From Bacilli bacterium (lineage in GTDB: Bacteria > Bacillota_I > Bacilli_A > RFN20 > CAG-826): a stretch of DNA of 37,277 bases. Positions 2,684 through 7,789 of this stretch are shown one piece after another; positions within the stretch are counted from its first letter, which is position 1, and each line of letters begins with the position of its first letter. The DNA is taken from assembly GCA_017470115.1 (NCBI GenBank), contig JAFUEZ010000018.1, positions 1-37,277 of the forward strand, read 5' to 3'. A program made the translations under genes and the position numbers. The notes below the pieces were generated by a model. That model saw only the letters and a list, made by a program, of their open reading frames with translations, was not told the origin of the DNA and searched no databases.

Positions 2684-2710
2684 ATTCAATACTCCTTCTA
2701 ATCGTGGTCA

Positions 2711-2719
2711 ATTTTACCA
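2711..2719 (-). promoter_or_regulatory. rpmG extended -10 promoter
   Basis: On the minus strand this reads TGGTAAAAT, an extended -10 (TGn followed by TAAAAT). The predicted start site is near 2704, giving a 21-nt leader that contains AAGGAG. No good -35 is visible. Confidence 0.5.
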
Positions 2720-2760
2720 TAAAAACATTATGGTTTCTATATTTTTTAACAAAGTTAAGT

Positions 2761-2766
2761 TATAAT
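2761..2766 (+). promoter_or_regulatory. ispG -10 box, leaderless
   Basis: A perfect TATAAT at 2761-2766. Seven bases downstream is 2773, the A of the ispG ATG, so the transcript is predicted to begin at the start codon. No Shine-Dalgarno sequence precedes the ATG and the -35 region is weak. Confidence 0.65.
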
Positions 2767-2772
2767 ATTTAC

Positions 2773-3828
2773 ATGAATTTGAGAGAAAAGACAAAACAAT
2801 TTAAAATTGGCAATAAAATTATCGGTGGTAATAATAAAATTTTGATCCAATCGATGTGCGACATTAAGACTTCTAATGTTGCTGAAGTTGCAAAACAAAT
2901 CAACGAATGCGAAGCTCTTGGCGCAGATTTAATGAGAGTGAGCGTTTTTGATGAGGAAGATGCAAAAGCAATTAAAGAAATTAAAAAGTTAATCCATATT
3001 CCACTTGTCGCTGATATTCATTTTGATTATAGACTTGGAATATTAGCTATGGAAAATGGCGCTGATAAAATTAGAATTAATCCTGGAAACATTGGCAAAC
3101 GTGAAAATTTAGAAAGAATAATCGAAGTTGCTAAAAAATATAATGTTCCAATTAGAATCGGAGTAAATAAAGGTAGCTTGGAGAAAGATTTGCAAGATAA
3201 TAGCGAACTTTCTGAGGCTGATAAGCTTGTAGAAAGTGCACTTCGTCATATTAAGATTTTTGAAGAATATAATTTTAAAAATATAGTAATTAGCGTCAAA
3301 GCTTCAAATCCACTTGTTACATTGGATGCTTATAGATTGATAGCTAAAAAATGCGATTATCCATTACATATTGGTGTTACAGAAAGCGGATATGATGAAA
3401 TTGGAATAATTCGCTCTGTTTCGGCTCTTGCACCATTAATTCTAGAAGGAATCGGATCAACTATTAGAATATCTTTAACGCATAATCCTCAAAAAGAGGT
3501 CAAAACTTGTGTTAGATTGCTTCATGATTTAGGTTTATATCCAAATTATCCAACAATTATAAGTTGTCCAACTTGTGGTAGATGTCAAGTTCACGATACC
3601 GCTTCTCTTGCTGATCAAACTTTAAATTATTTAATTGAACATAAAAAATACATAACTGTCGCAATTATGGGATGTATTGTTAATGGCGTTGGTGAAGGCA
3701 AAAACGCTGATATCGGTTTGGCTGGTGGAAAAGATACATTTATTCTATTCAAAAAAGGTGAAATTATTAAAAATGTGTCTCAACAAGATGCATTAAAAGA
3801 ATTATTTAAAGAAATAGACAAGTTTTAA
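2773..3828 (+). CDS. ispG: 4-hydroxy-3-methylbut-2-en-1-yl diphosphate synthase IspG
   Basis: Penultimate enzyme of the MEP isoprenoid pathway, converting cyclic MEcPP to HMBPP with a [4Fe-4S] cluster. At about 351 residues it is of normal bacterial length. An N-terminal TIM barrel (VADIHFDYRL, RINPGNIG, GVTESG) is followed by the reductase-like domain. The cluster ligands are intact: SCPTCGR (Cys265 and Cys268), then MGCIVNGVGE (Cys301 and Glu308). The usual Pro in NGPGE is Val here. The ATG at 2773 is preferred over an upstream in-frame GTG at 2704, because the -10 box lies between them and homology begins at the ATG. It converges with nfo over a shared palindromic terminator. The next enzyme, IspH, is represented in this window only by a cysteine-less relative. 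Confidence 0.95.
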   Translation: MNLREKTKQFKIGNKIIGGNNKILIQSMCDIKTSNVAEVAKQINECEALGADLMRVSVFDEEDAKAIKEIKKLIHIPLVADIHFDYRLGILAMENGADKIRINPGNIGKRENLERIIEVAKKYNVPIRIGVNKGSLEKDLQDNSELSEADKLVESALRHIKIFEEYNFKNIVISVKASNPLVTLDAYRLIAKKCDYPLHIGVTESGYDEIGIIRSVSALAPLILEGIGSTIRISLTHNPQKEVKTCVRLLHDLGLYPNYPTIISCPTCGRCQVHDTASLADQTLNYLIEHKKYITVAIMGCIVNGVGEGKNADIGLAGGKDTFILFKKGEIIKNVSQQDALKELFKEIDKF

Positions 3829-3841: not shown

Positions 3842-4711
3842 TTCTATATCAAACCATTTTCCGGTTCTTAACATTTCTATTTCTTGTTTATAAGGCGAGA
3901 ATTCACCAATCCAAGGTGTTTCAAGTATTTTTGGAATATCAATTAATCTTTTATTATGTGCAAATTGATATAAAGTATTAAAACCGATTGTACCTTTACC
4001 TAAATTTGCGTGCCTATCTTTTCTAGAACCTCTAATACTTTTTGAGTCGTTTAAATGAATAACTTTTAAATAATTTAGACCAATAACTCTATCAAATTCA
4101 TCTAAAAGAGCATCACTATTAGAAAGATCATACCCTGCATCATTTATATGGCAGGTGTCTAGACAAACTCCAATTCTACTTTGATTTTTCACATGTTTAA
4201 CTATATAAGAAATTTCTTCAAAAGTTGTTCCTACTTCGCTTCCTTTCCCTGCCATAGTTTCAATGCAAATAATTACATCGTTATCGCAATTTTCAATTGT
4301 TCTATTTAATCCATCAACAATATAATCTAAAGCTTCTTCAACAGGATAAGATAATCTCATTCCTGGATGCAATACAAGTAATTTACAACCAAAAGCAGCA
4401 CATCTATTAATTTCTGATGTTAAAAGTTCGATTGAAAATTCTTCTTTTTCTTTTGATGTTCTATTTGCAAGGTTGATTAAATAAGGTGCATGACAAACTA
4501 GTTTATCTAAATCAAAATTATTCTCTTTTAATAATTTTATCGCCTCTTCGATTTTGCAATTTTCAATAGGTGTTCTTTTTGTATTTTGGGGAGCACCTGT
4601 ATAAAACATGAGAGTTGTCGCATTATTTTCTAAGGATTCTAAAACACTTCCAAGATAAAAATCTGGAGCTTTCATTGATACATGTGAACCAATTAAGAAT
4701 TTATCTTCCAT
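3836..4711 (-). CDS. nfo: deoxyribonuclease IV (apurinic endonuclease)
   Basis: Zinc-dependent AP endonuclease of base excision repair, 291 residues, a TIM barrel of the usual length. Family signatures are visible: IGSHVSMKAP near the N-terminus, VCHAPYLINLAN (about residues 73-84), LVLHPGM, IETMAGKGSEVG (about 150-161), VCLDTCHINDAGYD (about 184-197), IHLNDSK and DRHANLGKG (about 235-243), which hold the metal-binding His, Glu and Asp residues. It overlaps the end of cshB by 11 nt. The cshB-nfo pairing and the facing ispG match the order seen in B. subtilis. Confidence 0.95.
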   Translation of the reverse strand: MEDKFLIGSHVSMKAPDFYLGSVLESLENNATTLMFYTGAPQNTKRTPIENCKIEEAIKLLKENNFDLDKLVCHAPYLINLANRTSKEKEEFSIELLTSEINRCAAFGCKLLVLHPGMRLSYPVEEALDYIVDGLNRTIENCDNDVIICIETMAGKGSEVGTTFEEISYIVKHVKNQSRIGVCLDTCHINDAGYDLSNSDALLDEFDRVIGLNYLKVIHLNDSKSIRGSRKDRHANLGKGTIGFNTLYQFAHNKRLIDIPKILETPWIGEFSPYKQEIEMLRTGKWFDIEK

Positions 4712-6068
4712 TGCTCTTCTTGCTTTCTTCTATATATCTTTCGACTCTTTGTCGTCTTATATCTTTTTTAATAGATTCACGTTTATGTTTATTTTTGACT
4801 TTTTGAATTTCTTGTTTAACTTTTTTCTTATAGCCAGGTTTGACTTTTTTACTCTTATTTATGGCTTTGACTTTTCTAATTTCTGTTTCAAGTTCTGTAT
4901 TTAGTTCTTTTTTGTGTTTCTTTTCTTTATTTGGAGCCTTATCATCGACAAAATCACCGTTAGCATATTTTAAATATTTAACTTCAAGACCTTGTTTTAA
5001 TAGTTTGGTTGGCAAATCTAAAGAATCATAATCATAGAATACATATGATTGGCCAGTTTTATAATTTCTACCAGTTCTTCCTGCTCTATGGTAATAATAT
5101 TCAAGATTATTTGGCAAATTAATGCTTAAAACATCTGAAACATTTTCAATATCTAATCCTCTTGATGCTAAATCGGAGCAAACAACAACTCTAAATTCAT
5201 CATTTTTAATTCTTCTAAGCATTGATTTTCTTTCTCTTGCTTCAAGAGCGCCACTAATAATTCCAGATTTAATCTTATTTGAGTTCAAGAAATTATAAAT
5301 TTCTTCGACTTCTTTTTTAGTGCTTGCAAATACTAATAAGAAATATGGTTTTTTAAGCTCGATAAATTTTAATAACAATTGTTTTTTATCTTGATGCTTT
5401 GTATTTATAAAATAATGAGTAACTGTTTTAGCTGTGTAATTTTGCTCGTTATTTGTCAAAACATAATCTGGAGAAATATATTTTTTCAAAAACATCTCTA
5501 CCTTTTTTGAAATTGTTGCACTATAAACTTCTATTTGAATGTTTCTATTAATTTTTTCCAAGATTCCATCGATGGTATCAAAGAATCCTTCATCTAAAAG
5601 CATATCGGCTTCATCTAAAACAAATGTTCTTATTGAATCAAGGTTTACTTCAGTTTCAGACAAAAGTCCTTTTAATTTACCTGGGGTTGCAATTAATATC
5701 TCACATCCGTTAGAAAAAGACTTAATGTCCTTCAAATTATCTTCACCACTAACAAATAATTTTATCGATAGTTCTCTATATTTTTCGCTTTTAGCAATTT
5801 CCATTGCAAAAGAATATATTTGACGTGCTAATTCTCTTGATGGAGATAAAATAATTGCCTGTAGTTGCTTGTTAATTTGAATTTGATTGAAAATAGGTAT
5901 TAAGAAAGAATGTGTCTTACCTGTGCCGGTTTCGCTTCTGACAATAATATTTTCATACCTTAAAGCTTTAGGTATTACAATTTGTTGTACCTCTGTTGCT
6001 TCAACATAACCTTTACTAGCGAGAATTTCGACTAATTGACTATCTAAATTAAATGCATTAAATTTCAT
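4701..6068 (-). CDS. cshB: DEAD-box ATP-dependent RNA helicase CshB
   Basis: DEAD-box RNA helicase acting in RNA remodelling or ribosome assembly. Motifs in order: Q motif (TEVQQIVIPKAL), motif I (SETGTGKT), PSRELA, TPGKL, DEAD in VLDEADMLLDEG, SAT in YSATIS, then SDLASRGLDI and HRAGRTGR in the second RecA domain. A Lys/Glu-rich basic tail of about 80 residues follows, typical of CshB. I start it at the ATG at 6068; an upstream in-frame ATG would add 12 unrelated residues and overlaps the promoter. The gene lies back to back with the IspH-like gene, with which it shares a 58-bp divergent promoter region, and it is translationally linked to nfo. Confidence 0.93.
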   Translation of the reverse strand: MKFNAFNLDSQLVEILASKGYVEATEVQQIVIPKALRYENIIVRSETGTGKTHSFLIPIFNQIQINKQLQAIILSPSRELARQIYSFAMEIAKSEKYRELSIKLFVSGEDNLKDIKSFSNGCEILIATPGKLKGLLSETEVNLDSIRTFVLDEADMLLDEGFFDTIDGILEKINRNIQIEVYSATISKKVEMFLKKYISPDYVLTNNEQNYTAKTVTHYFINTKHQDKKQLLLKFIELKKPYFLLVFASTKKEVEEIYNFLNSNKIKSGIISGALEARERKSMLRRIKNDEFRVVVCSDLASRGLDIENVSDVLSINLPNNLEYYYHRAGRTGRNYKTGQSYVFYDYDSLDLPTKLLKQGLEVKYLKYANGDFVDDKAPNKEKKHKKELNTELETEIRKVKAINKSKKVKPGYKKKVKQEIQKVKNKHKRESIKKDIRRQRVERYIEESKKSNGR

Positions 6069-6075
6069 GCTTGTA

Positions 6076-6081
6076 ATTTTA
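6076..6081 (-). promoter_or_regulatory. cshB -10 box, leaderless
   Basis: On the minus strand TAAAAT ends seven bases before 6069, giving a predicted leader of about one nucleotide before the ATG at 6068. The overlapping TATAAA would give about three. No Shine-Dalgarno sequence is present. Confidence 0.5.
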
Positions 6082-6110
6082 TATAATTTCAGTGCATTTT
6101 TCATTAAAAA

Positions 6111-6126: not shown

Positions 6127-7020
6127 ATGGAAACGAAAATATTAGAGCCAGTTGGCTATTCAAAAGCTTTAGAAAATTTATTAAACATAGCAAAAAACGT
6201 TAGAAAAGAATACCCTAATGATCAAATTGTCTTATTAGGTGGTCTTTTAAATGCTGAAAGCGTAAAAAAAGAATTAAGCGATTTAAATATTAGAATTGTT
6301 GATATTCCTTTTGAAGGCTTTGTAGATTATGTAAATAATGCAGATTTTGATACATTCTTTTTGACTTCTCCTTATGGAGTCGATAAGAAAGTCATCAAAG
6401 CTTTAAAGAAACGTAAAATTAGATATATTGAAACGACTTCTGATTTAGTTAAAGGCAAGATTAACTTTATAAATAAATATGGAAGACATCATAGAATCAT
6501 TTATGTATGTAACTTAAATACAGTTGAAGCAAATTATATTTTTAAAACTGCTAAACATCCTGTTATTTTCTACGATGTCAATAATTCATCTTTAGCAAAT
6601 CAAGTCATTACAGAACAAACCTCTAAGCTTAATAGACCAAGTACTTATATCTTATATCAAAGCGAACTTGCTGGAACAAATTTTGATACGTCTTTAGAAT
6701 ACTTAAAGGCTATACTTCCATATGCAACAATTGCTGAAGACGTAAGCGATGAAAATGCAGCAAAGAAAAATGAACTTTTGGATATTTTGGATGAAGAAAA
6801 TGACATTATTATTTTCGCAATGAATACATCTAAAAGAGATGAATATCTACTAGATTACTACCATTTATCTACTAAAAAAGTACTATATGCTGTTATTAAG
6901 GACGTAAATGAAGCTATGAACGTTAATATTCAAAATAAAAAAAGAGCCATCATTATTACCGATGGATCTCTTAGTAAAGAATCAATTGTGAATATTAGTT
7001 TTTACTTTACTTACAAATAA
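6127..7020 (+). CDS. IspH-like protein lacking all Fe-S cysteines
   Basis: A 297-residue protein aligning by eye along the whole of IspH (HMBPP reductase), in the syntenic ispH position between nif3 and cshB. Retained framework: EPVGYSKA for the PRGFCAG region, LTSPYGV for FSAHGV (79-85), IETTSDLVKGKI for DATCPLVTKVH (101-112), YVCNLNTVEAN for IGHAGHPEVEG, AMNTSKRDEYLL for the SSNSNRL segment (231-242) and AIIITDGSLSKESIV for the C-terminal AGAS segment (274-288). The three cluster cysteines become Ser12, Ser105 and about Val206. The catalytic His positions become Leu/Asn, Tyr83 and Asn. The only Cys is Cys128. It cannot carry the IspH cluster, so reductase activity is very unlikely. The ATG at 6127 is favoured over one at 6067 by the -10 box and by homology. 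Confidence 0.8.
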   Translation: METKILEPVGYSKALENLLNIAKNVRKEYPNDQIVLLGGLLNAESVKKELSDLNIRIVDIPFEGFVDYVNNADFDTFFLTSPYGVDKKVIKALKKRKIRYIETTSDLVKGKINFINKYGRHHRIIYVCNLNTVEANYIFKTAKHPVIFYDVNNSSLANQVITEQTSKLNRPSTYILYQSELAGTNFDTSLEYLKAILPYATIAEDVSDENAAKKNELLDILDEENDIIIFAMNTSKRDEYLLDYYHLSTKKVLYAVIKDVNEAMNVNIQNKKRAIIITDGSLSKESIVNISFYFTYK

Positions 7021-7789
7021 GTTTAGGCAATTTTTCTTGATAAACACAAATCACATTCAAGCTGCTATCAATCGATAGCAGTATTTTTTTGAATTGTTTC
7101 ATAAATATCTGTTCTACTTCATGTGGAACATCTAAAAAGTTGTAATTATATATACAAATATCTCTTCTAGCGTAATGTGGAATGTCACCGCTAATAAAAA
7201 TATCGTATCCTTCTTCTTTAGCGACTTTCCGCGCTCTTGAACCTCCGCCACCAACAATAGCTACAGTTTCTATGATTTCTTTTCCGCTATTAATCAAATG
7301 AGCGTAATCAAGGTCAAGTTTTTCTATTGCATATTTCGAAAAATCTTCTGCTTTCATTGGTTTAGGTAATCTTCCGCCTCTTGCCATAGGATAATTTTCA
7401 AGTGGTTTTATATCTTCTAAGCAAAGAGCTTCAGTTAAAGCGTCATTCATTCCATCTTTACAGGTATCAAAATTAGTATGCAAACTAAAAACAGGAATGT
7501 TTAGTTCTTCCATTTTGAGAAATAATTTATTTTTTTCTTCATCGTTTGACAAAACATCTCTTCTTTTCCCATATATAAAAGGATGATGAGTGATGACTAA
7601 ATCGATTTTGTCTAATAAGTTTTCGTTTTCCATATATTCAAAAACAAATCTATCAAAATCTAATGCCAATAAAATATTATTTGTTTCATCATGAAATTTT
7701 GCAACTTGTAGCCCAGGATAATCGTATTCTGCAGCTGACTTTTTAGGAAATTTCTTACCTAATCTTGAAATTAATGATCTTGTATTCAT
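7007..7789 (-). CDS. Nif3-like dinuclear metal protein (DUF34)
   Basis: A 260-residue member of the Nif3/YqfO/YbgI family, annotated elsewhere as GTP cyclohydrolase 1 type 2, although the true role is unsettled. Metal-ligand motifs are present: VITHHPFIYGKR (about residues 64-75), LHTNFDTCKDGMNDAL (about 97-112), VAIVGGGGSRAR, and in the last third GDIPHYARR and VPHEVEQIF, giving the His and Glu pair. It overlaps trmK by 4 nt (ATGA) and converges with the IspH-like gene, overlapping it by 14 nt. The trmK-nif3 pairing matches yqfN-yqfO in B. subtilis. Confidence 0.9.
   Translation of the reverse strand: MNTRSLISRLGKKFPKKSAAEYDYPGLQVAKFHDETNNILLALDFDRFVFEYMENENLLDKIDLVITHHPFIYGKRRDVLSNDEEKNKLFLKMEELNIPVFSLHTNFDTCKDGMNDALTEALCLEDIKPLENYPMARGGRLPKPMKAEDFSKYAIEKLDLDYAHLINSGKEIIETVAIVGGGGSRARKVAKEEGYDIFISGDIPHYARRDICIYNYNFLDVPHEVEQIFMKQFKKILLSIDSSLNVICVYQEKLPKLICK
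7062..7090 (+). terminator. terminator of the IspH-like gene, inside nif3
   Basis: CTGCTATC (7062-7069), loop AATC, GATAGCAG (7074-7081), then TATTTTTTT. This is a strong plus-strand intrinsic terminator 42 nt past the IspH-like stop codon. It lies entirely within the 3' coding region of nif3 on the opposite strand. Confidence 0.85.

Follow-up and report, generated by a model that had tools for sequence, protein, structure and literature searches.

Which protein stands at an ispH locus when the residues that make IspH an enzyme are missing from it? The window, by which we mean the whole stretch of 37,277 nucleotides analyzed here, carries on its forward strand a gene (6127..7020, stop included) that the initial annotation had described as an IspH homologue deprived of its Fe-S cysteines and catalytic histidines. 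The frame is indeed open, and its product of 297 residues, which we call pseudo-IspH, contains a single cysteine. The start is a methionine at 6127 that is common to the orthologues, the longest ATG-initiated frame beginning at 6067.

The gene was found, as had been noted, between two conserved neighbors, a cshB-type DEAD-box helicase gene (4701..6104) and nif3 (DUF34; 7007..7789), both on the reverse strand. Pseudo-IspH and nif3 are convergent and share 14 bases at their 3' ends. The surroundings further include ispG, an AP endonuclease gene, trmK, rpoD and dnaG. The ispG (GcpE) gene (2704..3828, forward strand), which encodes the MEP-pathway enzyme that precedes IspH, is intact as claimed (PF04551, 440 bits). 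In four congeneric genomes (G017, G018, G009 and G004; loci L072, L074, L092 and L093) two sigma-70-like genes lie in or near the cluster, both resembling the rpoD of the window. The promoter that had been proposed for pseudo-IspH found no support in a consensus scan, in which 7 candidates compared with 7.7 expected from shuffles, the level of chance. The terminator fared better: a consensus scan of the region recovered 2 terminator-like hairpins against 0.4 expected, and one of them lies downstream of pseudo-IspH on the same strand (7061..7082). This hairpin, the only one of the gene, falls within the coding region of nif3, antisense to it. Neither tRNA genes nor members of Rfam families were found in the window.

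Homology to IspH is established at the level of profiles. Pseudo-IspH scores 45.7 bits against the Pfam LYTB profile (PF02401; gathering cut-off 24.5), covering nearly the whole of it, and the profile is matched by all nine full-length members of the family. Alignment of the family with true IspHs by hhalign extended over 285 columns (E = 4.2e-36, probability 99.9). With the equivalog model TIGR00216 pseudo-IspH reaches only 35.2 bits, far under the cut-off of 187.85. Genes of this kind clear the Pfam cut-off and could consequently be misnamed as working HMBPP reductases.

Predicted structures agree with the profiles. AlphaFold models had a pLDDT of 84 for the window protein (with four models weaker) and of 91 for one orthologue (with all five models good), and both have the three-lobed IspH fold. 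Foldseek searches with the two models ranked IspH structures first (E = 6e-12 for the window protein and 4e-13 for the orthologue), and Z scores to 4N7B rose to 18.8 and 21.5, respectively, whereas the unrelated chains that followed scored 7.3 and 7.7. The match to IspH in profile and in structure that the initial annotation had called for was thus obtained. The rmsd between model and IspH is 4.5-6.0 over about 270 residues, and lobe movement or model error may lie behind these values. Structural matches to helicase, SirB and Dph2 were set aside at Z values below 8, such as Rossmann-like arrangements commonly give, as were weak matches to deoxyhypusine synthase, HAD, radical-SAM and trpE, seen in only one or two family members.

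What the family has exchanged is best seen by comparing its nine full-length orthologues with 31 true IspHs (E. coli numbering is used for IspH). Six positions that are identical in all 31 enzymes carry another residue, always the same one, in all nine orthologues. The three cluster cysteines are serines, namely Ser12 for Cys12 (6160..6162), Ser105 for Cys96 (6439..6441) and Ser207 for Cys197, the last opening an invariant SDEN motif (residues 207-210; 6745..6756). The three histidines are replaced by Asn42 for His41 (6250..6252), by Tyr83 for His74 and by Thr132 for His124 (6520..6522). Tyr83 belongs to a second invariant motif, TSPYG (residues 80-84; 6364..6378), which ends in Gly84, the counterpart of the conserved Gly75. 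By-eye assignments made beforehand had Ser12, Ser105 and Tyr83 right, whereas they had left Leu or Asn open for His41, had placed the third cysteine at about Val206 instead of Ser207 and had given an asparagine instead of Thr132 for His124.

Other positions of the active site were kept. Glu134 (6526..6528) is the catalytic Glu126, found throughout the family and in every true IspH. Gln178 retains Gln166 and is followed by Ser179 in place of Thr167 and by Glu180 in place of Thr168 (6658..6666), the last of these positions being acidic in 9/9 members. Ser281 retains Ser269 within a DGS motif (residues 279-281; 6961..6969). Gly75, Glu126, Gln166 and Ser269 are the retained set, and TSPYG, SDEN, DGS and YYHL (residues 244-247; 6856..6867) are the new invariant motifs. 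The SxN loop that binds diphosphate in IspH (225-227) was not recovered; where the local alignment is less sure, its columns hold Lys or Ser, a variable residue, and Asp or Thr, with Asp238 (6838..6840; Asp in 8/9) approximately at Asn227. The cysteines had not simply moved elsewhere, an explanation that had to be considered for the whole family, since none of its alignment columns holds a conserved cysteine and Cys9 is confined to a subgroup of five species (G001, G010, G012, G016 and G025).

An intact ispG raised the question of how the pathway ends, and the initial annotation had offered either a second, true IspH or HMBPP as the end product. Searching the genome of the window (1.41 Mb, 96% complete) with PF02401, as had been advised, returned two loci, pseudo-IspH and G000:C2:25349-26185. 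The latter encodes a true IspH of 286 residues (214 bits) with three cysteines and all active-site histidines, in the gene order dxs-ispH-uppS and unlinked to pseudo-IspH. The last step of the MEP pathway thus has a normal enzyme, and HMBPP as end product is rejected.

Several observations concern this pathway in the genus at large. UppS (PF01255) was found only in the ten carriers of pseudo-IspH (in the window's genome within the operon on G000:C2, locus L081) and in none of the other congeners. Among non-carriers only G005 and G007 have a DXS over the PF13292 cut-off, most being without it, yet Dxr, IspG and IspH are retained in nearly all of them; G006 (94% complete) has Dxr and, by profile search, neither IspG nor IspH. 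The genome of the window holds two DXS-like genes (G000:C2:27226-27909 and G000:C23:242093-242812), in both of which the DXP_synthase_N match is interrupted, with positions of about 195-230 missing. A search of the genus for Mur ligases (PF08245) yielded nothing apart from a fragment in G001 (80% complete, 4% contamination), and judging from this gene content the carriers, despite having kept UppS, appear to lack a wall.

The distribution of pseudo-IspH is narrow. Ten of the 26 genomes of the genus carry it, in one case split into two halves that lie at contig ends, and the dxs-linked IspH is present in every one of the ten. Non-carrier congeners with readable loci have a single IspH, a normal one, encoded next to cshB on the nif3/trmK side, and the same arrangement recurs in several further genera of the family. 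A pattern scan of 84,980 species returned nine loci, which belong to nine of the same ten genomes, and a profile search of 279 genomes across the order separated full-length carriers (at least 446 bits) from true IspHs (at most 121 bits); neither scan revealed the protein outside the ten species. Viral contigs scanned with true IspH yielded nothing. In another family of the same order, G088 also has two IspH homologues (C45 and C55), one of them lower-scoring (120 bits).

In a species tree of ten genes the carriers form a single clade within the genus, and in the IspH tree the pseudo-IspHs likewise form one clade (100/100), on a long stem of 1.35. The pseudo-IspH clade attaches to the locus IspHs of G005, G017 and G020; this placement is moderately supported, at 95/55 in a first tree that included four poorly extracted rows (O_G079, O_G028, O_G062 and O_G067) and 68 in a later one that, like the AU tests, was built without them. 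Conservation of gene order is stronger evidence than tree placement, and because of it pseudo-IspH is most likely the native ispH altered in place by descent. The earlier description of a pseudoenzyme that had replaced ispH thus holds for the pseudoenzyme, the locus and its retention, and most likely not for an incoming replacement. In the tree, the dxs-linked IspHs fall among IspHs of other genera, and in some of these genera ispH likewise neighbors uppS. Their gain by transfer is plausible, with an old paralogue as the alternative: a single clade of all IspHs of the genus was not rejected by the AU test (p-AU = 0.44), and a clade uniting pseudo-IspH with the dxs-linked IspH was merely disfavored (p-AU = 0.096). 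Arrival of the second IspH and change of the locus copy fall on one branch.

Pseudo-IspH is under strong purifying selection. In three close pairs dN/dS was 0.036, 0.090 and 0.144, rough values given that dS approaches or exceeds 0.9 in two of the pairs, and true IspH in the same pairs gave higher values (0.079, 0.258 and 0.214). About 59 alignment columns are invariant in a family whose members share 40-51% identity. The ten orthologues and the dN/dS values that had been asked for bear out the retention of the gene under selection. With its catalytic residues lost, its frame open, purifying selection acting across species and an active paralogue present, pseudo-IspH is, as read from its sequence, a pseudoenzyme.

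Where selection has acted within the molecule may point to what is retained. Pocket statements made here derive from alignment and secondary structure rather than from superposition. Out of 14 published active-site positions of IspH (PMC8837944), 10 are invariant in the family, compared with 54 of 277 aligned columns (p = 2e-5). When secondary structure was predicted, strand-to-helix loops, which in IspH face the cavity, were 40% invariant and loops of the other side 10% (p = 9e-5). Both p-values treat columns as independent and are indications only. The old diphosphate loop (residues 232-237) contains no invariant residue, and the YYHL motif and a C-terminal YFxY are invariant outside the cavity loops. 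By this alignment, invariant residues are gathered in the loops of the old active site, that of the diphosphate excepted.

These patterns suggest a chronology. The dxs-linked IspH would have been present first, making the ispH of the locus redundant and free to change. Along the one long stem branch the cluster and diphosphate sites would then have been exchanged for a fixed new set of residues (Ser12, Asn42, Tyr83, Ser105, Thr132, Glu180, Ser207-Asp-Glu-Asn and Asp279) that would surround the retained Glu134, Gln178 and Ser281. The resulting three-lobed protein, devoid of a metal cluster, would close around a small polar ligand bound in the former cavity and could serve as a sensor, a regulator, or an enzyme without redox chemistry. 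We accordingly lean, by a little, toward a pseudo-IspH that lacks a cluster, retains a pocket and acts either by binding or as a non-redox enzyme. An isoprenoid diphosphate is an improbable ligand, given that the histidines which bind phosphate and the SxN loop have disappeared and that acidic residues now occupy their positions; binding of such diphosphates, which the initial annotation had envisaged, is weakened by the dismantling of this set. Alternatively, the demands of folding or of a protein partner could explain why the pocket is invariant. The wider proposal, that in one clade the IspH fold passed from a [4Fe-4S] reductase to a new family of cluster-free proteins with a new and specific non-diphosphate ligand or reaction, the native gene having first been made redundant by an operon-borne IspH, appears to us evenly poised.

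A regulatory role within the pathway is a possible, if less probable, account. Pseudo-IspH would bind the dxs-linked IspH, IspG or DXS, or would sense HMBPP or IPP, and would tune flux in the manner of the prozyme of trypanosomes, a catalytically dead S-adenosylmethionine decarboxylase paralogue that activates its partner (PMC5201418, PMC6221367). Retention of the substrate-site residues Glu134, Gln178 and Ser281 is compatible with such sensing, although the site has lost its diphosphate-holding histidines and SxN residues and has become partly acidic. Pseudo-IspH and the dxs-ispH-uppS operon also occur in precisely the same ten species, but this co-occurrence represents one evolutionary event and carries little weight, and the gene itself is unlinked to the operon.

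We regard as unlikely that the IspH scaffold has become a structural or interface module in which the former pocket would be only a folding core and YYHL perhaps a contact for other proteins. The invariance of YYHL and of the C-terminal YFxY, both away from the loops that form the cavity, fits this idea. Invariance is, however, focused on those cavity loops and on polar residues, as is more usual for ligand sites than for cores.

Much less credible is a protein still resembling IspH in its chemistry, with serine oxygens holding an Fe-S cluster or iron and with some HMBPP reductase or other redox activity. The three cysteines were replaced specifically by serine in every member, and the catalytic glutamate was kept. 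Note however that all three histidines were lost as well, that mutants of His124 in the E. coli enzyme have very low activity (PMC8837944), that in M. tuberculosis mutation of the cluster residues is reported to have abolished complementation (PMC4550268), and that every carrier has a true IspH. Finally, a decaying gene or an assembly artefact, to which the stem branch of 1.35 might point, is hardly tenable against ten separately assembled genomes without internal stops (one split only by contig ends), dN/dS of 0.04-0.14 in close pairs and the many invariant columns.

A search of open-access papers found no IspH pseudoenzyme, and we know of no IspH-fold protein that lacks its cluster. A single genus displays the state before (a normal IspH at the locus), the redundancy (the dxs-linked IspH) and the state after, in which six positions were switched and then frozen. 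It would therefore offer a clean natural case of an essential Fe-S enzyme being retooled. Compared with the IspH enzymes of E. coli (3KE8), P. falciparum (4N7B) and A. aeolicus (3DNF), pseudo-IspH shares full-length homology, the predicted three-lobed fold, the chromosomal locus of ispH in its family, and the residues Glu126, Gln166, Ser269 and Gly75. Unlike them it has no cluster cysteines, no active-site histidines and no conserved diphosphate loop, is acidic at the position of Thr168, carries TSPYG, SDEN, YYHL and DGS, and falls far under the TIGR00216 cut-off.

Two further systems invite comparison. LytB1 of M. tuberculosis is reported to be likewise a second IspH homologue beside a working IspH, one that is not genetically redundant with it and does not replace the essential enzyme (PMC4550268); it differs in having kept all critical residues, seven or more of which are lost in pseudo-IspH. 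The trypanosome prozyme (PMC5201418, PMC6221367) belongs to another fold and pathway, and the partner of pseudo-IspH is only putative; the two are nevertheless alike in that each would represent a catalytically dead paralogue kept by selection beside a live enzyme.
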